Shown piece after piece: positions 1,058-17,330 of a stretch of DNA of 22,117 bases; position 1 is the stretch's first letter, and the number at the start of each line of letters is the position of its first letter. The notes beneath the pieces were generated by a model. That model was not told where the DNA came from, did not search any database, and saw nothing but the letters and a program-made list of their open reading frames with translations. The position numbers and the translations under genes are program-made. The stretch is from a virus. The stretch lies in the IMG/VR virus record IMGVR_UViG_3300025910_000038, positions 1-22,117 of that record, one strand, 5' to 3'.

Positions 1058-2044
1058 ATGTTTAATACCTGGCCTATACCCTGGCAGGAGTGCGCGTCTG
1101 CGTTCCTGCAATCGATCTATGATATCTCCGGCTCCGAGCCAAGCCGCGAGACGTATCGCTCAAACCTTGCTCGATTCTTCAAGCATTGTGGCAAGCAGCC
1201 CGACGAGGTTTCTCGTAGCGATGTCCTCGCTTTCATGCAAAGCCCAAGTATCGCACGATGTAACCCTGGCGGCGAGGCCTCGGCTAGCACGAAAAACCAA
1301 CGCCTCTGTGTCCTCACCTCGTTCTATCGCTTCGCCAGCTCCTATGAGGCCAATGGCGAACCTATCTACCAGAAGGCTATACCAACCCAAGGGATACGCT
1401 ACCTCAAGCCTGATGCGCCCTATCGCTCGATGAATACCGACGAACTCAAGCGCTTCTTTGCGGCGATCCCCGGCGATACGATCAAAGGTAAGCGCGATTA
1501 TGCTCTCTTCGCTACCTACTTCTGGACAGCCAGGCGGCGCAACGAGATTGCCGCTATCCGGTGGCGCGACATCGAACCCGCTATTATTGTCGAGCGCGAC
1601 GGAACCAGGCGAACCGGCCATGTCTATCGCTATCGCCCGAAAGGCAAGCACAGGCAAATCAAGACGAAAGAGCTACCGCCGCGTGCCTGGCAACTCATCG
1701 AGCGCTATCTTGAGTCATCCGGTAGGCTCTTCACCATCCAGCCGGACGACTTCATTTTCATTTCGACGAAACCCGGGCAAGCAGGCAAACCGTTGCACGA
1801 CGATTATATTAATACCCTTTTCAAACAGTATGCGATAGCCGCAAACCTTGATGTCAACCGGCTTAGTTTACACTCACTTCGCCACGGCGCAGCCCATGAG
1901 CGCCAGCAGGCCGGGCAAGATATCCTCCTCATCAAAGACCTGCTGGATCACGAACGCCTGGATACGACATTCCGCTATTTGCAGCGTATCGGCGGCGTTG
2001 CTGACCCAGGCGCAAAGCTGCTTGAAGCCAGGTATGGCCTCTAA
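1058..2044 (+). CDS. int: Tyrosine-family site-specific recombinase (phage integrase)
   Basis: A 328-aa tyrosine recombinase, the normal length for phage integrases. Residues about 8-110 form a SAM-like core-binding domain (YRSNLARFFKHCGKQPDEV, then STKNQRLCVLTSFYRFA). The catalytic domain spans about 120-325. The active-site set is visible: R160 in the FWTARRRNEI motif, K195/K197 in RPKGKHRQ, H272 and R275 in LHSLRH, H298 in LLDHERLDTT, and the nucleophile Y307 in FRYLQ. All expected residues are present, so it should be active. The motif normally reads TGLR; here it is TARR. The start has no strong ribosome-binding site, and a hairpin lies just upstream. It ends one base before a 36-bp repeat array and converges on the tas gene. 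Confidence 0.93.
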   Translation: MFNTWPIPWQECASAFLQSIYDISGSEPSRETYRSNLARFFKHCGKQPDEVSRSDVLAFMQSPSIARCNPGGEASASTKNQRLCVLTSFYRFASSYEANGEPIYQKAIPTQGIRYLKPDAPYRSMNTDELKRFFAAIPGDTIKGKRDYALFATYFWTARRRNEIAAIRWRDIEPAIIVERDGTRRTGHVYRYRPKGKHRQIKTKELPPRAWQLIERYLESSGRLFTIQPDDFIFISTKPGQAGKPLHDDYINTLFKQYAIAANLDVNRLSLHSLRHGAAHERQQAGQDILLIKDLLDHERLDTTFRYLQRIGGVADPGAKLLEARYGL

Positions 2045-2045
2045 A

Positions 2046-2810
2046 TGGCTCGCTCTATCTTCCTGGTACACTCCTACGGAATGGCTCGCTCATTGACTTT
2101 GGCACTCTCTCAGACGTTGGCTCGCTCTGCATCGATGGTACTCTCATGGTCATTGGCTCGCTCTAACCTCTTGGCACTCTCTTGTAACATGGCTCGCTCC
2201 GCGTCATTGGTACTCTCATCCGGAGTGGCTCGCTCGCTAACAATGGTACTCTCAGATACCTTGGCTCGCTCGCGCCTATTGGTGCTCTCTATCAAGATGG
2301 CTCGCTCGCAGATGGCGGTACTCTCTGGGCGAATGGCTCGCTCTTGCATTATGATACTCTCATTCTTCCTGGCTCGCTCTCCTTTTAAGGTGCTCTCTTG
2401 CCATGTGGCTCGCTCCGCTACGATGGTGCTCTCCCAGGGACTGGCTCGCTCTTCATCAATGGTGCTCTCGTAAACCCTGGCTCGCTCTATCATCTTGGTA
2501 CTCTCTCGACATTCGGCTCGCTCACATCCACTGGTGCTCTCCAAAGACTTGGCTCGCTCGTATGGTATGATGCTATCCAGCACATTGGCTCGCTCAATAT
2601 GTATGGTACTCTCAAGTATAATGGCTCGCTCATCTTTCATGGTACTTTCCAAGCTGTTGGCTCGCTCACACTGTCTGGACTCTCCTATAGGATAGCTCGC
2701 TCTTTTGCTGTGGCACTCTCCTTGCAAGTGGCTCGCTCGCTTTTTTTGGTACTCTCTGCTAAGATGGCTCGCTCTTCAGCCTTGGTACTCTCGACCTTTT
2801 TGGCTTAGTC
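2046..2810 (-). repeat. TIGR-type array: 21 dual-spacer 36-bp units
   Basis: The plus strand shows 21 consecutive units of TGGCTCGCTC, an 8-nt variable stretch, TGGTACTCTC (often TGGCACTCTC or TGGTGCTCTC), and a second 8-nt variable stretch. This fills 2046-2800, with a decayed block (TGGCTTAGTC) at 2801-2810. All units are 36 bp except unit 18 (35 bp, second block TGGACTCTC). The two blocks share 7 of 10 bases. By eye all 42 spacers differ. This is not CRISPR: repeats are too short and spacers are 8 nt. It matches the published TIGR architecture as I recall it, where one 36-nt guide carries two short spacers and is used by IS110/Nop-related Tas proteins. The guide strand is inferred to be minus (blocks GAGAGTACCA and GAGCGAGCCA), because the array follows the tas gene directly in that direction. 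No terminator was found before the integrase. Confidence 0.88.
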
Positions 2811-3629
2811 GTCCTCCATCGGCCAATTAGGTGGCTTCAAGAGGTCAACATGTCCCATGTGTTCAATAACGAATGGTTTGGGCGGTAATGTGCCATATTC
2901 GGTTTCGTACCACACCCAATGGAGATGTGATAAGAACATCTTGACCGCATACCGCTTAGCACGCTCGTTGATGTGCGCAGGTGGCAGCTTGCCCTGTGCA
3001 TATGCTTTATAGGCTTCGGTTTCCTTACCCACTTTCTTGACAAGCGCCGCCGCCTGCTCAGCAAATGCACCCACTTCGTTGCGTTCCTGCTCTTGCGCTT
3101 TACGCGCTACATACAGCTTGCCATACACATCACGCTCGTTATTCTGGACCTTGACAAAGCTCTCCCCGATCTTCCAGCAGATCACTTTGAGTTCTGCATT
3201 CCAGGGGCGTTTCTGGCCTTTCTCCCAGGAAGCATTCGGGTTGAGTCCGGCAAAACTCCAGATATGCCCAACGGTCGGCGCTTTCGTGATGTCGATATGG
3301 GCCAGCAGGCCAGCGGCCAGCACCGGGCCAATCCCGATAATAGACCGGGCCCATTTGCCAACAACATTCGACTTACTGTACTTATCCAGAGCAGATTGGA
3401 TATTCTTCTCTAAGCCTTCCGTATTGCTATACATCCAGCGTATGAGGTCGTGTGGTTCGCCTGACTCAGACAAGGCGCGTATCTGATTGCCAAAGCGGAT
3501 ACGGTAGCCTTGTACCTGGTAGTAAGCGTCCACCATGAATCTGGCTTCCCCCGATGAGAGGACTTGCGCGGCCGTGCGCAAGTCTTTGTCGAGCTTGACA
3601 AACGGCTCAAGTCCTACGGTGTCTAACAT
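2805..3629 (-). CDS. tasA: TasA-like protein: IS110 Transposase_20/Nop-related, no nuclease domain
   Basis: A 274-aa protein with three signatures of the IS110-family C-terminal (Transposase_20) domain. There is a helix-hairpin-helix-like stretch, SIIGIGPVLAAGLLAHI, plus GHIWSFAGLNP (residues about 97-131). Next comes KRPWNAELKVICWKIGESF (140-158), followed by YGKLYVARK. Last comes a basic helix, NERAKRYAVKMFLSHL (221-236). The N-terminal RuvC-like DEDD domain of real IS110 transposases is absent; residues 1-95 are helical and unlike it. No HNH motif is seen. The start at 3627-3629 has AAAGG upstream; the longer frame to 3683 overlaps the preceding gene. The stop codon touches the last repeat of the adjacent 36-bp array. 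A nuclease-less Tas protein (TasA) that binds DNA through guides from the array fits best. A degenerate IS110 relative is the alternative. Confidence 0.75.
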   Translation of the reverse strand: MLDTVGLEPFVKLDKDLRTAAQVLSSGEARFMVDAYYQVQGYRIRFGNQIRALSESGEPHDLIRWMYSNTEGLEKNIQSALDKYSKSNVVGKWARSIIGIGPVLAAGLLAHIDITKAPTVGHIWSFAGLNPNASWEKGQKRPWNAELKVICWKIGESFVKVQNNERDVYGKLYVARKAQEQERNEVGAFAEQAAALVKKVGKETEAYKAYAQGKLPPAHINERAKRYAVKMFLSHLHWVWYETEYGTLPPKPFVIEHMGHVDLLKPPNWPMEDD

Positions 3630-3642
3630 ACTATTGCCTTTC

Positions 3643-3909
3643 TTATTCTCGCCCGGTGAGTATCGCTCTGATGCGTTTAGCATCTTTGGCTTTCACCATG
3701 CCGACGTTGAGACGTTCTCCGCCCTGACCATGAATGATAAGCTTGTGGCGACTCATGCCGGGCAGCCACATTGCCAGCTTGCTATCCAGGGCCGTGAATG
3801 ATGAGCGTGCCATCGTCTGTGATTTGATGGAGCCGAGTTCGACGATAATATGCGTATCGGTAATAATCACTTTACCTTGCGAGCAACGAGTACGTAAGAG
3901 TTCTGCCAT
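3643..3909 (-). CDS. Small beta-rich protein of the tas operon, possibly PH-like
   Basis: An 88-aa protein of unknown function. The alternation KVIITDTHIIVELGS, then ARSSFTALDSKLAM, then HKLIIHGQGGERLNVGMV, with a closing helix (KAKDAKRIRAIL), resembles small bacterial PH-like domains. That is a fold-level impression only. The ATG at 3907-3909 is preceded by AAGGAAG on the coding strand; the frame extends 10 codons further but without a better site. It sits 13 bases upstream of the tasA-like gene and just after the HTH gene, so all three are probably co-transcribed. No catalytic motif, signal peptide or membrane segment is visible. Position suggests an accessory of the tas system, but nothing in the sequence proves it. 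Confidence 0.6.
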   Translation of the reverse strand: MAELLRTRCSQGKVIITDTHIIVELGSIKSQTMARSSFTALDSKLAMWLPGMSRHKLIIHGQGGERLNVGMVKAKDAKRIRAILTGRE

Positions 3910-3938: not shown

Positions 3939-4211
3939 CTACGAGTTTTGCGGTTTCTGCTTCAGCGAGAGCGCGGGCGGAACGACGTTAGACCTCACCG
4001 CTGGTTGCTTGTCCGTCTGCTGTTTTCGCTCTTGTGCTTCCTGGCGAAGTTGCCAGATACGCTCGAAATCCTCAAGCTTCATGTAGGCGCGTCTATCGAG
4101 CGGAAACCGCTTTTTCTCGATCTTCAGGTGATCCAGGTAGTAACGCAAGGTGCCACGAGCGACACCAAGCCTTTCTGTTGCCTCCTTGAGCGAAATGTAT
4201 TTTTCTTTCAT
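3939..4211 (-). CDS. MerR/excisionase-like HTH regulator, first gene of the tas operon
   Basis: A 90-aa protein whose residues 4-55 form a MerR-type winged HTH. Helices YISLKEATERLGVARGTLRY are followed by a basic stretch (KIEKKRFPLDRRAY) and KLEDFERIWQL. A Gln/Lys-rich, probably disordered tail follows. GAGGTGAC precedes the ATG on the coding strand. It is the first gene after the strong minus-strand promoter at 4247-4275 and lies upstream of the PH-like and tasA-like genes. It could autoregulate the operon by binding the repeats in the divergent promoter region. Direct regulation is inference. Confidence 0.75.
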   Translation of the reverse strand: MKEKYISLKEATERLGVARGTLRYYLDHLKIEKKRFPLDRRAYMKLEDFERIWQLRQEAQERKQQTDKQPAVRSNVVPPALSLKQKPQNS

Positions 4212-4275: not shown

Positions 4276-4322
4276 GGCGAAAGATGCCAAATAAGTGGCT
4301 ACAAGTGTTGACATATGGCTAC
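4263..4322. promoter_or_regulatory. Possible operators between divergent promoters
   Basis: Between and within the two divergent promoters there is an inverted repeat, TTTGGCGT (4263-4270) and ATGCCAAA (4284-4291), with one mismatch. There are also two direct copies of TGGCTAC (4296-4302 and 4316-4322), 20 bp apart, the second inside the plus-strand promoter spacer. Such placement is typical of phage operators. The binding protein is unknown; the HTH encoded at 3939-4211 is a candidate. Confidence 0.4.
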
Positions 4323-4336
4323 GAATAGGCTATAAT
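4308..4336 (+). promoter_or_regulatory. Perfect-consensus sigma70 promoter for the early genes
   Basis: TTGACA (4308-4313), a 17-bp spacer and TATAAT (4331-4336) match the sigma70 consensus exactly. The predicted start near 4343 lies 30 bases before the ATG at 4373. It is divergent from the tas-operon promoter. Confidence 0.88.
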
Positions 4337-5111: not shown

Positions 5112-5885
5112 ATGCCATTCAATCCGAGCGATCACTTAATGCAAATCAAGAACAAAAACGGCTCGTCTGATTACCTACAAGTAGCGTGGCGTCTCGTCTG
5201 GTTCAGGGAGAAACACCCCCAGGGCACGGTCGATACTGAAGAAGTGGTTATCGACCTGGATCGGGAGGTACAAGAAGAGACGTATGCATGGAATCAAGAA
5301 ACGCGCCGGTCTGAAAAAGTGATGAAGCATGGTCGCGGTTATGCGCGGTTCCGAGCTACCGTTACCGATGGTAAGGGCGGGCGGGCTACTGGCACGAAAT
5401 CCGAACATGCCGCAAGTTTCCCTGACTACATCGAAAAAGCCGAAACCGGCGCGGTTGGCCGCGCTCTTGCTATGCTTGGCTTCGGCACGCAGTTCACCGG
5501 AGATGAGTTTGACGAAGGCGAGCGATTGGCGGATATGCCGCTAGATCGCGGCCAGGTATCCGATAACGGGCGTAAGGGAATAGAAGCCGATACACCTAAA
5601 GCTGCTGCTGGCACTGAACACTTGACGAACGGGGACGGTTCGCCTGCATTCCCTGAGCGCATGAAACCTTCAGACGTTGAAAAGCTCTATAGCGATTTCT
5701 GGCTCTGGACAGGGCTCGATGCAGAGGTCGATGTACGCAAGCGCTGGGAAGCCTGGAAGAGTAGCCTCTTCGGAAAAGCGTACATTGCTGACCAGGACTT
5801 GACAGTGAAGCAGGGGGAAACCCTGCATGAGCGACTTGCAGCGGCACAAAAGAAAGCCGCCGTGACGAAAGGAGGTGATCGATGA
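5112..5885 (+). CDS. Putative ssDNA-annealing recombination protein (Rad52/Erf-like)
   Basis: A 257-aa protein. The N-terminal half is a compact alpha/beta domain (YLQVAWRLVWFREKHP; VVIDLDREV; GYARFRATVTDGKG) ending in a helix, DYIEKAETGAVGRALAMLGF, then GTQFTGDEFDEGERLAD. An E-K-A-x-T-x-A-x-G-R-A-L helix followed by G-Y/F-G is a hallmark of phage single-strand annealing proteins and relatives with a Rad52-like fold. The second half has a Pro/Ala/Gly-rich linker (about 150-180) and a helical C-terminal region (ERMKPSDVEKLYSDFWLWTG). AAGG lies upstream of the ATG. Position among early genes fits a recombination role, but I do not recognise a specific family. Confidence 0.5.
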   Translation: MPFNPSDHLMQIKNKNGSSDYLQVAWRLVWFREKHPQGTVDTEEVVIDLDREVQEETYAWNQETRRSEKVMKHGRGYARFRATVTDGKGGRATGTKSEHAASFPDYIEKAETGAVGRALAMLGFGTQFTGDEFDEGERLADMPLDRGQVSDNGRKGIEADTPKAAAGTEHLTNGDGSPAFPERMKPSDVEKLYSDFWLWTGLDAEVDVRKRWEAWKSSLFGKAYIADQDLTVKQGETLHERLAAAQKKAAVTKGGDR

Positions 5886-6040
5886 CTAAGAAGATATGCC
5901 CTGCCTGCATGGAGAAATGCACGAAGCTCTACGAAATCACGATCGGCGGCGTACAACGTATTCGCGTTTGTTTCCGTTGCAAGCGGGCACATCTCGCCTA
6001 CGAGCGGGAACTAGCGCGTAAGAAGATCAAAGCCTCTTGA
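5882..6040 (+). CDS. 52-aa zinc-ribbon microprotein
   Basis: A short gene reading MTKKICPACMEKCTKLYE through ...CFRCKRAHLAYERELARKK to a TGA at 6038-6040. Two CxxC knuckles (CPAC at 6-9, CFRC at 30-33) predict a small zinc ribbon with a basic helical tail. An excellent Shine-Dalgarno site (GGAGGTGATC) lies just upstream, and the ATG overlaps the preceding stop as ATGA, so translation is well supported. Function unknown; possibly a nucleic-acid-binding accessory to the preceding recombination-like protein. Confidence 0.75.
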   Translation: MTKKICPACMEKCTKLYEITIGGVQRIRVCFRCKRAHLAYERELARKKIKAS

Positions 6041-6091
6041 TGTATGAGCGATTACTCGGTGTAAGAGATTTCTCGTAGGCAGTTCACAGAT

Positions 6092-6114
6092 TTCTCTCAT
6101 GTAGTTTGAGAGAA
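6092..6114 (+). promoter_or_regulatory. RNA hairpin upstream of the 6142 gene
   Basis: A perfect 8-bp stem (TTCTCTCA at 6092-6099, TGAGAGAA at 6107-6114) with a 7-nt loop. There is no T-tract, so it is not an ordinary terminator. It may protect or delimit the mRNA of the gene starting at 6142. Nothing else was seen in 6041-6141 apart from further TTTCTC repeats. Confidence 0.4.
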
Positions 6115-6141
6115 GGTTAGGTACACTCAGGAGAGAAGTAC

Positions 6142-6516
6142 ATGGCAGACGCGCAAGGCCCGAACATGAGCCGGGAATGGAACCTTGAAATTGGCGAAAA
6201 GTTGCTCGGTATCATCCGAGAAGAAAGGAACAAGACAATGTTACGAAAAGAGAATCAGCCGCGCGGGCATTTCCCGCTCGACGAGTACCGCAATGAGCGG
6301 GCGCGCCCGCTCATGACGTTTGTGGTTACGTTGTGGGTTGGGACGAGCGCGGAGAAAGTGCGAGCGCTCGTCGTTGAAGTCGAAAGCGACACGCAGACCA
6401 ACGCGGTGTCGCAGGCACGCCAGGATTATGCATCCGAGGCGTCTAGGGTCGTGCATGAGCCAGAAGTGCAAATCATGAAAGGGACTGCTATCTGGCTGGC
6501 AGTTCCCAAAGAGTAG
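6142..6516 (+). CDS. Conserved-looking phage protein of unknown function
   Basis: A 124-aa protein started by an ATG with AGGAGAG upstream. The N-terminus is helical (REWNLEIGEKLLGIIREE). The middle has a beta-strand-rich stretch (MTFVVTLWVGTSAEKVRALV) and a segment EVESDTQTNAVSQARQDY typical of a small alpha/beta domain. No catalytic motif, signal or membrane helix is evident. A 9-bp hairpin follows its stop (6527-6551). No function assigned. Confidence 0.6.
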   Translation: MADAQGPNMSREWNLEIGEKLLGIIREERNKTMLRKENQPRGHFPLDEYRNERARPLMTFVVTLWVGTSAEKVRALVVEVESDTQTNAVSQARQDYASEASRVVHEPEVQIMKGTAIWLAVPKE

Positions 6517-6518
6517 CT

Positions 6519-6590
6519 ATGCCTGAGGAAGCCGCCATACAAGCGGCTTCCCGTCCATTCCACAAGTATCGTGACTTGCTGAGCTACTAG
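6519..6590 (+). CDS. Possible 23-aa microprotein over a hairpin
   Basis: ATG at 6519 opens a 23-codon frame (MPEEAAIQAASRPFHKYRDL...) ending TAG at 6588-6590, directly before the ribosome-binding site of the next small gene. The first half coincides with a perfect 9-bp hairpin (GGAAGCCGC 6527-6535, GCGGCTTCC 6543-6551). A strong Shine-Dalgarno site is lacking. It may instead be only a structured intergenic region. Confidence 0.25.
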   Translation: MPEEAAIQAASRPFHKYRDLLSY

Positions 6591-6604
6591 AAAAGGAGTT
6601 CAAG

Positions 6605-6679
6605 ATGAATAGTTGGGTATGTGAATGTGGGGAACATAATCCCGATACCCGTTCAACATGTCGTAAGTGTGGAAGATAG
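6605..6679 (+). CDS. 24-aa zinc-knuckle microprotein
   Basis: ATG at 6605 with a strong AAAAGGAG site 6 bases upstream encodes MNSWVCECGEHNPDTRSTCR and then KCGR before TAG. The CxC...CxxC arrangement after a tryptophan resembles a RanBP2-type zinc ribbon reduced to its core. The ribosome-binding site and the preserved cysteines argue that it is real despite its size. Function unknown. Confidence 0.55.
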   Translation: MNSWVCECGEHNPDTRSTCRKCGR

Positions 6680-8842: not shown

Positions 8843-8912
8843 GTGGTCGATTGGAAAGCAATTCAATCCAAGTACGAGCAAGGGGCATCCTTGCGCGATG
8901 TTGTTGCTAAAG
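8843..8912 (+). pseudogene. Orphan terS-like HTH fragment left of the GIY-YIG insertion
   Basis: GTG at 8843 (AAGGG about 10 bases upstream) opens VDWKAIQSKYEQGASLRDVV, closely similar to the start of the terminase small subunit (IDWAKIRTEYESGLSLRQLA, from 9582). The similarity stops after about 23 residues, where the promoter/leader of the endonuclease gene begins. This looks like the 5' end of an ancestral or duplicated terS interrupted by that insertion. The frame happens to stay open into the endonuclease gene, so a 248-residue fusion is formally possible. Confidence 0.5.
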
Positions 8913-9016
8913 TTGCCCCACAAGCCGACTTATGCTATAATGAGGCATCAAATATTGTTGCGCTAGGCGGTGCTGCTAACACCCCTAGCCGGATACATCT
9001 GCAAGGAGACGTATCG
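8913..9016 (+). promoter_or_regulatory. Promoter and structured leader of the GIY-YIG gene (copy A)
   Basis: TTGCCC (8913-8918), 17 bp and extended -10 TGCTATAAT (8933-8941) precede a hairpin at 8962-8989: GCTAGG, bulged C, GGTG, 7-nt loop CTGCTAA, CACC, CCTAGC. Then come GGATACATCTG, AAGGAG and the ATG. The same arrangement precedes the HNH-AP2 gene (11883-11989) with compensatory changes in the stem, so it is a shared nucleic-acid-level module. It may time endonuclease expression or control its translation. Confidence 0.65.
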
Positions 9017-9589
9017 ATGGATATGATACCGCAAGACAACACGCCCCGCAACGCCGATTGGGAATTGATTAGACAGAGCTTTGAGCAGGGTGCCTCTTTA
9101 CGTGAAATTGCAGCGCGTTATGGCAGTTCCCCGGCAACCATTTTGCGGCGGGCTCGCCATGAGCAGTGGCAAAGGTCACTCACGACACATGATCCCGTTT
9201 GGAATAAATCCCGCGCTGAACGCAAATGGCGATTGAAACATCTTCATAAAGAACACTCCCACACGGATAAGGCCGTAGCTGTTTATTCCATCTATGCCCT
9301 CATTGATCCTAGAGATCAGTTAGTTCGCTATGTGGGTATGAGCCAAGATGTAATTAGGCGTTTTGGCTCACATCTCCGGCTAGAACATGATGAATCAAAT
9401 CCCGCTAAGACTGCTTGGATATCGGACTTAAGTTCGCATGTTTTACTCCCTATTCTTTCTGTATTAGAGACGGGTTTAACCTTCTATGATGCATCGAGAA
9501 GGGAAAAATATTGGATCACGTATTTTGCTTATGGCTTGGACATGCCTCTTGTCAATTATCGCCCATATAGTGAGATGCAGTATGATTGA
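9017..9589 (+). CDS. HTH-GIY-YIG homing endonuclease
   Basis: A 190-aa two-domain protein. Residues 14-51 form an HTH (DWELIRQSFEQGASLREIAA, then RYGSSPATILRRARHEQW) strongly resembling the N-terminal HTH of the neighbouring terminase small subunit. After a basic linker comes a GIY-YIG nuclease domain (about 88-185): YSIYALIDPRD, RYVGMS, an arginine in DVIRRF, and REKYWITYF with the likely metal-binding glutamate. The ATG at 9017 is preceded by AAGGAG with 8-base spacing and by its own promoter. Phage free-standing homing nucleases cut near conserved genes to spread themselves. Sitting upstream of terS with a terS-like HTH suggests the DNA-binding domain was captured from, or duplicated with, terS. 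Overlaps the terS start by 8 bases. Confidence 0.82.
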   Translation: MDMIPQDNTPRNADWELIRQSFEQGASLREIAARYGSSPATILRRARHEQWQRSLTTHDPVWNKSRAERKWRLKHLHKEHSHTDKAVAVYSIYALIDPRDQLVRYVGMSQDVIRRFGSHLRLEHDESNPAKTAWISDLSSHVLLPILSVLETGLTFYDASRREKYWITYFAYGLDMPLVNYRPYSEMQYD

Positions 9590-13274: not shown

Positions 13275-15577
13275 GTAGACGCAGCAGGAACAGGCGCGCA
13301 TATACCTCTACGCAGCAAAAGGATAATCCTAACGTCGCCGTAGTGGTACAAAACCAGGGCGTCGGCACACCCGCGACCATGCCAAGGAATATGAGGGCAT
13401 ATATCCAGGAAGGCTATCGCGGCTCAAGAACAGTCTTTCGCGTCGTGCAATATATTGCCAGGGCGGGAGCTGGTATCAAGTGGAAGCATTATACTGATGC
13501 CACGAAGCAGAAAGAGATCACCAATCCGAATGACGAACTCATGACGCTGTGGGGTAAGCCAAATCCGAAGACATCAGGCTCACAGTTCAGAGAAGCGATG
13601 CTTGCCTATTATTGCTTAACCGGCAATTCGTATATCCTCGGCATCAATCAATGGCAACGCCCGAAGGCCAAGTTTGACGAGTTATATAACCTACGCCCTG
13701 ACCTCACCAAGATCAAAGTAGATAAGGATGGGCCAGTTTACTATGAGCTTGGGAATACCACACCTCCCACACGCTATCCTGATCCATTTGTCATGCACAA
13801 TAAACTGTTTGCGGGCAACGATGATGTATACGGCATGTCTCCCATAGAGGTAGCGGCTATGCTGGTTGACGTGCAGAAAGCCGGCCAGAAGTGGAATTTA
13901 GGCCTGCTGAACAATATGGCGCGACCAGGCGGCGCGTGGGTGACTGACGCACTACTCGGGGATCAGGAATATAAGAGCCTGAAGGATGAAATCAAGAAGA
14001 AGTTCGCGGGCCCGCGTAACGCCGGTGAAACGGCTATACTGCATGGTGGTGTGAAGTGGCAGAGTATGAGCATGAGCCCGATGGAGCTTGATTGGATCGA
14101 GTCAGATACGAAGAGCGACCGTGATATAGCGGGCATCCTTTTCAATTTCCCCCTGTTTCTCCTGGGACTTGCTGATAGCACCTACAGCAACCAGGAAGAA
14201 GCACGCTATGCGCTCTATACCGAGATCGAATTGCCGCTTCTGGATATGTTTCAAGATAGCTTGAATATGTGGCTCGTGCCGCCTTTTGGTGGGTATTTGG
14301 GTTACGATCCAAAGGATATAGAAGCTATACAGAGGCGATTGCAAGAAGCGCAAGGGCAAGCATCTGATAGGGCTCAGGCTGAATTCACTGCCGGTACTAC
14401 GACCCTCCATGAAGCTAGAGAAATACAAGGCAAGAAACCGTTGCCCGTCAAGGATTTCATGTATGTTAATCAGGTACCGGTGCATGTAGAAGACCTGGAC
14501 GAGTACATTGCAGCACAAGCCGGTAAGGTGATCAATCCGCCAAAGCCGCCGCCGATGTTGCCACAGACGATAGTAACCCCGGTAGACGATAATAACCCGG
14601 ATGATAGTAACCCGGATGACAACCAACCGCCTCAGAAAATGCTGCCTCCTGCTGTACAAATCAAGGTGCTAGACCTCCAAACCGCCGACGAGAAAGCGGC
14701 CTATATGAAATCGGTCGAGAGCCAAAGGATAAAATGGGAGAAGGTGATCGTGAGCAGGCTGCAAGACTACTTTAAGGACGAACATAAGACGATTGCCGCA
14801 GCTGTGAGTAGAGGCGATGTCTCAGATGCAGCCCCCAACGTAGCACACGCTCTGACCGTCTTAGAGCAGCAAGGGACGCTTAAGAACTTATTGGTGAGTG
14901 TTTACCAGGATGTCGGGACAGACAGCGGTGAGAGCGTTCTAAAGGACTTAAAATACAATGAGAAGCCGTTTGAGCAGAAACAACTTGCCATCGATTTTAA
15001 CCTCTATTCACCAGATGTGCTTATCTATCTTCTCTCGATGGCGGGTAAGAAAGTTACCCAAATCGATGCGACGACGCTGGCAGAGTTGCAAAGCGCGCTT
15101 GAAGAGGGCGTGCAGGCCGGAGAGTCCATCGCGCAGTTATCGAAAAGGGTCGATGATCTATACGCCTTCCAGACCGAAGAACGCATCCAAAAAATAGTCG
15201 CAACTGAAGTAGTAGCAGCTAGCAACTATGGCTCACACGAGGCGGCTAAAGCGTCTGATCTCTCGCTGAACAAGGTGTGGCTGGCAACCAACGACGGGCA
15301 CACACGACCCGATCATCGGGAAGCAGACGGGCAGACGGTAGGCATGGATGAACCTTTTGATGTAGGTGGAGAACAACTGATGTTCCCAGGCGATACGTCG
15401 CTCGGAGCTTCTGCTAAGGAAATAATTTTCTGCCGCTGTACGCAATACTACGAGCAAGCGCCGGATAGTAGCCTGGAAGATGATATCGGCAAAGCGTTGA
15501 CGCGGTTAGCCAGGAGCATCCCACAGGTGGCAGTCACCCGAGAGCAGTACCGCGAATTGTTGAGGATAAAGCGATGA
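13271..15577 (+). CDS. Portal protein fused to a MuF-like head-morphogenesis domain
   Basis: A 768-aa protein. The N-terminal half (about 1-400) is an HK97-type portal: SRTVFRVVQYIARAGAGIKW, LMTLWGKPNPKTSGSQFREA, YYCLTGNSYILG, YGMSPIEVAAMLVD, and FLLGLADSTYSNQEEARYAL. An Asp/Asn/Pro-rich linker (about 435-460) follows. The C-terminal part (about 640-725) carries a Phage_Mu_F signature: EVVAASNYGSHEAAKASD, TRPDHREADGQ, PGDTS and CRCTQ. Portals form the dodecameric packaging vertex; MuF proteins are minor head components. A single-chain fusion is known in some phages. No toxin domain follows the MuF part. GGAGGTG precedes the ATG at 13271, which overlaps the previous stop. Confidence 0.9.
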   Translation: MSRRSRNRRAYTSTQQKDNPNVAVVVQNQGVGTPATMPRNMRAYIQEGYRGSRTVFRVVQYIARAGAGIKWKHYTDATKQKEITNPNDELMTLWGKPNPKTSGSQFREAMLAYYCLTGNSYILGINQWQRPKAKFDELYNLRPDLTKIKVDKDGPVYYELGNTTPPTRYPDPFVMHNKLFAGNDDVYGMSPIEVAAMLVDVQKAGQKWNLGLLNNMARPGGAWVTDALLGDQEYKSLKDEIKKKFAGPRNAGETAILHGGVKWQSMSMSPMELDWIESDTKSDRDIAGILFNFPLFLLGLADSTYSNQEEARYALYTEIELPLLDMFQDSLNMWLVPPFGGYLGYDPKDIEAIQRRLQEAQGQASDRAQAEFTAGTTTLHEAREIQGKKPLPVKDFMYVNQVPVHVEDLDEYIAAQAGKVINPPKPPPMLPQTIVTPVDDNNPDDSNPDDNQPPQKMLPPAVQIKVLDLQTADEKAAYMKSVESQRIKWEKVIVSRLQDYFKDEHKTIAAAVSRGDVSDAAPNVAHALTVLEQQGTLKNLLVSVYQDVGTDSGESVLKDLKYNEKPFEQKQLAIDFNLYSPDVLIYLLSMAGKKVTQIDATTLAELQSALEEGVQAGESIAQLSKRVDDLYAFQTEERIQKIVATEVVAASNYGSHEAAKASDLSLNKVWLATNDGHTRPDHREADGQTVGMDEPFDVGGEQLMFPGDTSLGASAKEIIFCRCTQYYEQAPDSSLEDDIGKALTRLARSIPQVAVTREQYRELLRIKR

Positions 15578-15753
15578 AAAAGCGAGATGAGCGACGGTTT
15601 CAGGCGACCGTACGGGAAGTGTATCTTGCCTATCTGCGTAATGCACACGCACATGGCGTCAACATTGGTTGGCCGTCCTGGGCAGAAGTGCATCCCGGGT
15701 GGAAGCGCATCTTCTATGGTCAGGCAAGAGAACTATTGAGGGCTAAACGATGA
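15574..15753 (+). CDS. 59-aa basic protein, unknown function
   Basis: Starts at an ATGA overlap with the portal stop and reads MKKRDERRFQATVREVYLAY, with a Trp-containing turn (IGWPSWAEVHPGWKR) and a basic helical end (ARELLRAKR). It is one of three tiny overlapping genes between portal and protease. Its 3' end (GAGGGCTAAACGATGA) provides the next ribosome-binding site. Coding is supported by the coupling; function unknown. Confidence 0.6.
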   Translation: MKKRDERRFQATVREVYLAYLRNAHAHGVNIGWPSWAEVHPGWKRIFYGQARELLRAKR

Positions 15754-15941
15754 ATAACAAAGAAGCCCAGGTTTACAAGGAAAAGCGACAGCGGTTCTTG
15801 GCCGCGCTCAAGCGGTCTGATCCAACGATTGTCAGTGTCCTTGAGACGAGCGATGAGCGAAGCAGGCTCGACCGCGAGGAGAACAGGCGCAGACGAGTAG
15901 AAGCGTTTCGCAAGCGAGCAGAGAAGAGGGCGAAACGATGA
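15750..15941 (+). CDS. 63-aa highly charged helical protein
   Basis: An Arg/Lys/Glu-dominated single helix (YKEKRQRFLAALKRSD; SRLDREENRRRRVEAFRKRA) with start and stop both in ATGA overlaps with neighbours. It could be a scaffold- or nucleic-acid-associated head assembly factor, but no family is recognised. Confidence 0.6.
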   Translation: MNNKEAQVYKEKRQRFLAALKRSDPTIVSVLETSDERSRLDREENRRRRVEAFRKRAEKRAKR

Positions 15942-16156
15942 ACACACAAGTCGAAGAGTATATCGCTACTCTGCTGAGCCTGGGCCTTTCGCGCAGCCAG
16001 GTAAGCGAGAAAGCCTATGATTACGCGCTGGCGTTACTGCTAGAAGAGCAAGCCGAGGGCGCGTCTGTCACAGCGGCCATGATGGCGCGGGCTGCTGAAC
16101 TGGTCAGGGATGCCATACCGAAAGTAACTCGTTTCTACGAGCTAAAACAGAGGTGA
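15938..16156 (+). CDS. 72-aa helical protein, unknown function
   Basis: A 72-aa, all-helical, Ala/Leu-rich protein (EEYIATLLSLGLSRSQVSEK; YALALLLEEQAEGASVTAAM). It is started at an ATGA overlap and followed by GAGGTGAG, the ribosome-binding site of the prohead protease gene. Size and position between portal and protease suggest a head-assembly accessory. Confidence 0.6.
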   Translation: MNTQVEEYIATLLSLGLSRSQVSEKAYDYALALLLEEQAEGASVTAAMMARAAELVRDAIPKVTRFYELKQR

Positions 16157-16160
16157 GAAA

Positions 16161-17330
16161 ATGAGAGTACCAAAGATCGAACGACCGATAGAATACAAAG
16201 CCATCCTGAGCGGGGAGATCAAAGCTACCAATGATGCACAAGGAATCATTGAAGGCTATCTGAATTATATTGGGAACGTCGATTTTGGCGGTGATCGCAC
16301 GATGAAAGGCGCATTTCAGAAGACGATAAAAGTCTCGTATGCGCGCAAGTCAGAACAGAACCTAGATTATCTCTGGCCCTATCTCTGGAACCATGATTAT
16401 AGCAATCCTCGTCTTGTACCAGGGGGCATATTCGATGCTGATGAAGACCGTAAAGGGCTCTACATCAAAGTGAAACTCTTGCAAGAAATTGAGATAGGCC
16501 GGGACCTCTACGCCAGTTTCAAAGCTCGAACGATTACCAAGCAATCGATGGGATATATAGCGCAGCAAGTTGACTGGGTGAAAGAAGACGGCCGTTCTAT
16601 CCGCAATTTGCTGGAAGTAGAGGTAAAGGAGGGAAGCGCCGTTGTCTTCCCGATGAATGACCTGGCCCAGGTAGACACCGTGAAAAACGGGAGGAGGAGC
16701 TTTTTTATGACAGGTAAAACAAAGCAGGAATCGCCTGCTGTAATCACGACCAAAGACTACGCATCCGATTATGCGCAAGTGACACAACAGGACTGGGTTT
16801 CGGATCTCTGGAATCTCTGGTATCCGTTCAGGAACGCCATGACCCAGGCGTTTGTGATTGGCGATCGGCCAGCAGAGGATATCGATACAGCCCTGGATCA
16901 ATTCGGCGTGGCTGTGCGTGCGTATGTGCAGCAAGGGATCGCGCTGAACATGACCGAGTACCTGCAACCTGACGACGATGAGAGTACTACCATGCCAATG
17001 TATATGAGCGCTGACGACAACCCTGAAACGAAAGAAACGAAAGCGGGTCGGGTGATCTCAGCAGCTAACCATGCCAAGATTACTAAAGCAGTTGACGGTA
17101 TTCATGAGCATACCAAGACCATCAAGGAAGTGCTGAAGTCGGCAGCGACCCAACGGGCGGCAGACCTGCAAGGATACCCCGTCTATTCCTCATCTGAGAA
17201 TGACCCGACACCTGAGCAGAAACAGGACGAGCAGGACGATAACACGGAAACGCCTCCTGCGGATATGCATACGCTGCTGGATGATCTGGTCAACGTGCTA
17301 CACGCACAAAACTCATTCCGGGGCATTTAA
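16161..17330 (+). CDS. HK97-family prohead protease (U35)
   Basis: A 389-aa protein. Residues about 10-175 form the U35 protease domain: IIEGYLNYIGNVDFGGDRTM, PYLWNHDYSNP with catalytic H78, GLYIKVKLL, and TITKQSMGY with nucleophile S129, followed by LLEVEVKEGSAVVFPMN. It matures the capsid by removing the N-terminal delta domain of the major capsid protein. The roughly 200-residue C-terminal extension (FMTGKTKQESPAVIT; NLWYPFRNAMTQAFV; DGIHEHTKTIKEVLKS) is longer than in many proteases and ends in an acidic Glu/Asp/Pro-rich region. It may act as scaffold. GAGGTGAG precedes the ATG. Function assignment is firm; the role of the extension is inference. Confidence 0.9.
   Translation: MRVPKIERPIEYKAILSGEIKATNDAQGIIEGYLNYIGNVDFGGDRTMKGAFQKTIKVSYARKSEQNLDYLWPYLWNHDYSNPRLVPGGIFDADEDRKGLYIKVKLLQEIEIGRDLYASFKARTITKQSMGYIAQQVDWVKEDGRSIRNLLEVEVKEGSAVVFPMNDLAQVDTVKNGRRSFFMTGKTKQESPAVITTKDYASDYAQVTQQDWVSDLWNLWYPFRNAMTQAFVIGDRPAEDIDTALDQFGVAVRAYVQQGIALNMTEYLQPDDDESTTMPMYMSADDNPETKETKAGRVISAANHAKITKAVDGIHEHTKTIKEVLKSAATQRAADLQGYPVYSSSENDPTPEQKQDEQDDNTETPPADMHTLLDDLVNVLHAQNSFRGI

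Follow-up and report, generated by a model that had tools for sequence, protein, structure and literature searches.

A phage-borne TIGR-TasA locus with two guides that match predicted promoter sites in related rival phages

IMG/VR virus record IMGVR_UViG_3300025910_000038, a stretch of 22,117 bases that we refer to as the window, carries a TIGR-TasA locus: the gene tasA, coding for a nuclease-free Nop-domain protein, and an adjoining array of 21 dual-spacer guides. That the locus is phage-borne, as an earlier note on this DNA had proposed, is borne out by the terminase, portal and capsid genes of the same record. Two of the guides (6 and 18) match, in the published geometry of TIGR targeting, a pair of neighboring sites in a non-coding region shared by four phages, and each site lies over a predicted promoter −10 element. 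We consider it likely that the locus as a whole is a phage-borne TIGR-TasA system with guides directed against a control region of rival phages, and that it would serve phage–phage competition by promoter blocking.

Each 36-bp unit runs from an edge repeat through spacer A and a loop repeat to spacer B, both repeats being 10 nt long. Guides are numbered 1–21 from the tasA side, except that the self-match and re-pairing comparison left the unit with a 7-nt spacer out of the numbering, making guides 6 and 18 there 5 and 17. The features of the locus are:

2046..2810, minus strand: TIGR dual-repeat array of 21 guides; transcription is presumed to run in the tasA direction, as read from the sequence.
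2801..2810, minus strand: 5′ degenerate edge repeat GACTAAGCCA, overlapping the tasA stop codon TAA; read from the sequence, with the same junction in the relative L007.
2586..2631, minus strand: guide 6 and its flanking edge repeats (spacer A, TTATACTT, 2614–2621; loop repeat, 2604–2613; spacer B, TACATATT, 2596–2603).
2154..2199, minus strand: guide 18 and its flanking edge repeats (spacer A, TGTTACAA, 2182–2189; loop repeat, 2172–2181; spacer B, AGAGGTTA, 2164–2171).
2046..2055, minus strand: last edge repeat, complete, ending 1 nt from the stop codon (2042–2044) of an integrase gene.
2805..3629, minus strand: tasA, coding for a 274-residue Nop-domain TIGR-associated protein, with its ATG at 3629 and an AAAGG ribosome-binding site.

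Base matching at a lag of 36 was 0.60 in the array, whereas the rest of the window did not exceed 0.32 and 1,000 shuffles did not exceed 0.33. The array holds 43 repeat blocks and 42 hypervariable spacers (41 of 8 nt, one of 7 nt), no two of them alike, and one unit (∼2658–2693) shows a single-base loss. Repeat identity within a class was 95.5% for edge and 84% for loop. Read on the minus strand, the edge repeat is GAGCGAGCCA, exact in 19 of 22 copies, and the more variable loop repeat is GAGAGYRCCA. Mean pairwise identity among spacers was 0.256, against a chance expectation of 0.260. These data confirm the array of twenty-one 36-bp dual-spacer units that the earlier note had described, with the small qualification that one of the 42 distinct spacers is 7 nt long. 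The note's view that this is not CRISPR also holds, given the two 10-nt repeats, the 8-nt spacers and the absence of cas genes from the scanned window proteins. A search of the window against Rfam gave no match.

TasA scored 218 bits against NCBIfam model NF052498 (cut-off 100), compared to 25 bits against the IS110 model (cut-off 140), where the match was confined to residues 68–132. The sole Pfam match was a weak one to the IS110 C-terminal domain (PF02371), just above cut-off, and PADLOC returned no match to TasA. The closest solved relatives by phmmer were TasR (9mty, E = 3.6e-21) and TasH (21kl, E = 1e-9). An AlphaFold2 model based on 44 relatives (pLDDT 88.9) gave Z scores of 19.9 to TasH, 18.7 to TasR and ∼13 to IS110 recombinases, aligning from residue 22 onward to residues 64–309 of TasH and 110–322 of TasR. 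Box C/D snoRNP proteins were absent from the matches of this fold comparison, which is still compatible with a relation to them. Because only ∼22 residues precede the Nop domain, the protein is of the nuclease-free TasA type. Hence the earlier description of the adjacent gene as an IS110/Nop-related TIGR-Tas protein stands, on the NF052498 match and the TasR/TasH fold, once it is corrected to this type. An identity as IS110 transposase was rejected, as the DEDD transposase domain is missing and the IS110 score falls far short of its cut-off. A longer reading of tasA is available as a 292-residue open reading frame reaching 3683. Database labels for the family are misleading: phrog_4285 is called ‘transposase’ and NF052498 ‘endonuclease’ (TIGR_Tas_endo), and the TasA members considered here have no room for a nuclease domain.

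Profile scans of IMG/VR yielded 196 relatives, of which 80 were kept; those of bacterial and archaeal genomes yielded 12. Of 95 loci, 83 have a dual-repeat array next to tas, as detected by a simple motif chain, and the strand of the two is almost always the same; the presence of the same arrays in relatives supports the TIGR-Tas interpretation of the earlier note. The edge repeat is strongly conserved across relatives. In 123 of 128 arrays, its positions 3 and 8 form a pair (GC, AT, TA or GT), with changes on both sides; the last repeat base (A or G) is the same in edge and loop, again in 123 of 128. Covariation between edge and loop boxes, and an extra covarying edge pair, have been described for TIGR (Faure et al., PMC12045711). 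The earlier note had held that identical spacers in unrelated relatives, with no interaction with the adjacent protein, would refute its reading; in the closest relative, L007, spacers are 34% identical to those of the window, which equals the chance level, compared to 82% for the tas genes and 92% for the repeats. We regard the membership of the locus in TIGR-TasA as firm and next to certain, making it a new member of a known family.

In TIGR targeting, spacers A and B pair with opposite strands of a contiguous target, gaps of 1–2 bp are tolerated, and cutting leaves 8-nt 3′ overhangs (PMC12045711). Given these rules, a target strand must read spacer A, a gap of 0–2, and the reverse complement of spacer B. 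We searched the window guides against 14 phage contigs (774 kb), with the three other A/B arrangements and cross-edge pairs as controls. One of these contigs, G154 (47 kb), is the phage carrying L007 and drew attention as the bearer of the closest Tas. Guide 6 matched G154 at 16 of 16 positions (at 27,572) and guide 18 at 15 of 16, 146 bp away, both in the predicted arrangement and with a gap of 0. For 21 guides on G154, ∼0.001 exact and ∼0.05 one-mismatch matches are expected by chance. Control geometries gave no match on G154 at ≤1 mismatch, and all 420 wrong A/B pairings gave one match with one mismatch and none that was exact. In 20,000 randomized arrays (spacers shuffled, or A and B re-paired), the matches of two guides never fell within 500 bp of each other, and an exact match of any kind occurred in 12.

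Scans of all IMG/VR contigs found the guide-6 target in 37 contig stretches and the guide-18 target, with C or G at one variable base, in 41. Both occur together in exactly four, always 146 bp apart: L416 (= G154), L415, L402 and L427, the last three examined as regions of 4–7 kb from contigs of 44.8, 41.2 and 17.5 kb, respectively. Guide 6 matches all four at 16/16, and guide 18 matches L415 at 16/16 and the others at 15/16, without gaps. The search of paired spacers against phages that the earlier note had suggested leads to one conserved intergenic region. The four phages are diverged relatives (L415 is 86.6% identical across the region), and one of them bears a Tas 89% identical to window TasA. 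No other array matched the target regions at ≤1 mismatch. We judge the targets of guides 6 and 18, which are identified at the level of sequence, to be very probably real.

In both G154 and L415, a perfect predicted promoter (TTGACA-17-TATAAT) has its spacer and −10 hexamer within the guide-6 site, and a second prediction on that strand (TTGCCA-17-TACAAT) has its extended −10 within the guide-18 site. A 900-bp stretch of L415 contains no promoter-like sites besides these two. The opposite operon may have a leftward promoter that overlaps the guide-18 site as well. On one flank of the region, small early genes form an operon that in L402 leads to replication protein O; on the other are genes for an integrase, an excisionase-like HTH_17 protein and, in L415, an HTH_3 regulator. 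With these neighbors, the region looks like a lysis–lysogeny control region. Downstream of the first targeted promoter, ∼125 nt end in an invariant stem, a variable loop and TTCTTTTT, and probably represent a small RNA with an intrinsic terminator. This candidate is located at L353:7589–7718 and at the same place in L402, L415 and L427; Rfam gave no match to it or to the target region.

How might the locus work? We propose that the array would be co-transcribed with tasA and cut within the edge repeats to give 36-nt tigRNAs, each held by a TasA dimer and each recognizing 16 bp of DNA, with spacer A on one strand and spacer B on the other. TasA is known to bind 36-nt guide RNAs, and TasR to bend its target sharply (PMC12045711). 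Since it has no nuclease, TasA is most likely a programmable roadblock or repressor that would bend DNA. Guides 6 and 18 would aim it at two neighboring sites in the control region of rival temperate phages, each over a predicted −10, between the replication operon and the side with the small RNA, repressor and integrase. Occupancy of the −10 by a nuclease-free protein would block promoter opening, which favors RNA-guided repression of the rival control region, and the role would be phage–phage competition, for example superinfection control. Expression, processing, binding and transcriptional block are steps that we infer, and repression as the outcome of targeting is a reasoned conclusion that we hold with fair confidence.

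Several observations weigh against this proposal. The targeted promoters are sigma-70 consensus predictions, a target has been identified for only 2 of the 21 guides, and G154 is one of 14 contigs searched. A consensus scan found no terminator-like site at the end of the array. Cross-targeting among all related loci showed no excess over the three control geometries and cross-edge pairs, and −10-like sequence is not enriched in guides as a class; these two results together imply that promoter targeting may be special to this array. Apart from these points, single-guide scans of IMG/VR (120 rows, with a gap-2 excess) gave matches in many unrelated genes and were discarded as reflecting common codon patterns such as DKIxKY.

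Another possibility, which we think unlikely, is that the guides target the rival region and TasA helps there, by aiding recombination or integration or by switching on an immunity module, for example during co-infection. TasR bends DNA nearly 180 degrees and an integrase-aid role has been proposed for TasA (PMC12045711); moreover, an integrase gene borders the array in the window, and the rivals too have one near the target. However, it is −10 hexamers that the sites cover, rather than the integrase gene or a mapped att site, no guide matches the window's own DNA, and the neighborhoods of other tas genes yielded no homologue of the window integrase.

It is also conceivable, if quite improbable, that the TIGR-TasA system is real and the rival-phage matches are coincidental, with the true targets elsewhere. 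For any one 16-nt guide, IMG/VR contains tens of chance matches; most of the guides lack a target here, and there is no global enrichment. Chance would, however, have to place two guides 146 bp apart in the closest Tas-bearing phage, in the correct geometry and without a gap, which none of the randomized arrays did, and to match both exactly in the diverged L415.

Regulation of the phage itself or of its host by the array appears very improbable. The array ends 1 nt from the convergent integrase stop codon, so its transcription would run antisense into the integrase gene, and small RNAs serve self-regulation in some phages. Yet no guide matches the window in the correct geometry at ≤2 mismatches, and self-matches showed no excess there, across 81 loci, or over ∼774 kb of sequence from 14 phage contigs; for the phage itself, this idea is already disfavored. 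A decaying satellite or coding repeat unrelated to tasA, for which one could cite the long open frames through the repeat on both strands, can be dismissed, as the earlier note had done for a simple satellite, since repeats are kept, spacers are random, the array adjoins tas in most loci, and edge positions 3 and 8 pair through changes on both sides.

A second, weaker case of targeting, suggestive only, comes from Acidobacteriaceae KBS 96. The TIGR prophage of this strain (array L086, G001:C1 at ∼136 kb) has five clear guides, one of which matches its own host chromosome at 16/16 with a gap of 0 (L220:9962–9977; chance ∼0.05 for five guides). The matched sequence comprises codons 9–14 of an HTH_17 excisionase-like gene in another prophage or capsid-encoding satellite of the same genome, an element with genes for an integrase next to tRNA-Glu, a repressor, a replication-like protein, a small terminase, a capsid protein and a protease. 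A second guide matched with two mismatches 0.9 kb from the first; this match was discarded, since a control geometry matched equally well in that region. The KBS 96 target also has 33 matches in unrelated genes of IMG/VR, largely from one recurring gene family, and these were rejected. One KBS 96 guide gave no match in 150 genomes of its family, and guides of the Halomonas NO4 and Propionivibrio prophages gave none at ≤1 mismatch in five host genomes.

Comparison of related loci shows how arrays change. In L076 and L077 the tas genes are 98% identical, yet the two arrays are separated by gain or loss of many whole guides over their full length, together with half-unit replacements. Sister arrays L076/L077, L039/L051, L070/L080 and L059/L061 show gain and loss of whole guides anywhere in the array, half-unit replacements and point changes in spacers; tas genes and repeats in the same pairs stay nearly identical. 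This pattern differs from the end-wise growth of CRISPR arrays. On a larger scale, the TasA cassette moves between unrelated phages, as G154 has no homologue of the window terminase. Spacer A GAAAGTCG is common to five loci (L008, L010, L011, L025 and L087) with two different B partners, and the window and L007 have only spacer B AGATGATA in common; single spacers seem to be re-paired. L032 and L060, whose arrays are otherwise different, have one guide in common, apart from a single change (GCACTTGG or GTACTTGG, paired with GACAAGAT). This suggests that the two have the same target; a database scan for it was swamped by chance matches. L083 has TIGR arrays at two distant places (5829–6678 and 15542–16666), the second on the opposite strand.

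Genes around the locus are:

1058..2044, plus strand: tyrosine recombinase (integrase), convergent with the array (Pfam PF00589, E = 2.8e-19).
3643..3909, minus strand: 88-residue open reading frame directly upstream of tasA, with no homologue near other tas genes.
3939..4211, minus strand: 90-residue MerR/excisionase-like DNA-binding protein, whose gene comes first in the presumed tasA operon (phrog_66, E = 1.2e-5; MerR_1, E = 6e-4, below cut-off).

The MerR/excisionase-like gene also matches PADLOC model mad1 (E = 1.8e-7), probably as a generic HTH protein. The window also has a perfect sigma-70 consensus promoter (TTGACA-17-TATAAT; 4308–4336, plus strand), which lies upstream of the tasA operon in the divergent intergenic region. 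Two genes are GIY-YIG endonuclease-like, one by Pfam (428–877) and one by visible sequence similarity only (8843–9589), and the L007 phage has a relative of the first ∼2.4 kb upstream of tas.

The nearest known systems are TIGR-TasA loci with dual repeats (Faure et al. 2025, Science, PMC12045711), such as FpTIGR of Flavonifractor plautii. Like these, the window has a solo Nop protein in a phage context, alternating edge and loop repeats in a unit of ∼36 nt, an array in line with and downstream of tas, the box C motif CCA in both repeats, and a degenerate or truncated edge repeat at the start. It differs from the FpTIGR type in spacer length (8 nt, giving a 16-nt guide as in SpTIGR, rather than 9), in the box D side (GA rather than UG), and in having a complete last edge repeat, no terminator found and an identified rival-phage target; it also has 21 guides compared to the usual 5–15. 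Truncated edge repeats at both the 5′ and 3′ ends and a rho-independent terminator are typical of TIGR arrays and not defining (PMC12045711). TIGR-TasR and TasH (PDB 9mty, 21kl and 9w04) share the Nop fold (Z 19–20), 20–30% identity and a tandem-spacer guide with the window system, but have an N-terminal RuvC or HNH nuclease that window TasA lacks. In IS110-family RNA-guided transposases (IS621, ISCro4), the RNA-binding domain is related (Z ∼13); those proteins have a DEDD domain and use a single bridge RNA, whereas the window has no such domain and a guide array. Nuclease-free CRISPR interference on mobile elements (type IV, V-M) is alike in principle, in that competitor DNA is blocked by RNA guidance without cutting, although here the protein is unrelated, the guide is split over two strands and Cas genes are absent.

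According to the TIGR paper, genuine spacer targets are hard to identify, the function of nuclease-free TasA is unclear and array growth is an enigma (PMC12045711). In a collection of open-access papers, with subscription papers and preprints outside the scope, we found no report of natural TIGR targets. The present locus offers a concrete protein, two guides and two matching predicted phage promoters, making the targets and the purpose of TIGR directly testable. Its relatives illustrate array change through internal gain and loss of whole guides and fast replacement of spacers, with repeats retained. On balance we lean toward the view that TIGR-TasA systems are programmable repressors deployed between temperate phages, in which paired guides would act on the lysis–lysogeny promoters of rivals and whole-unit turnover of guides would track those rivals. 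If true, a TIGR system would thereby have its first known natural target.
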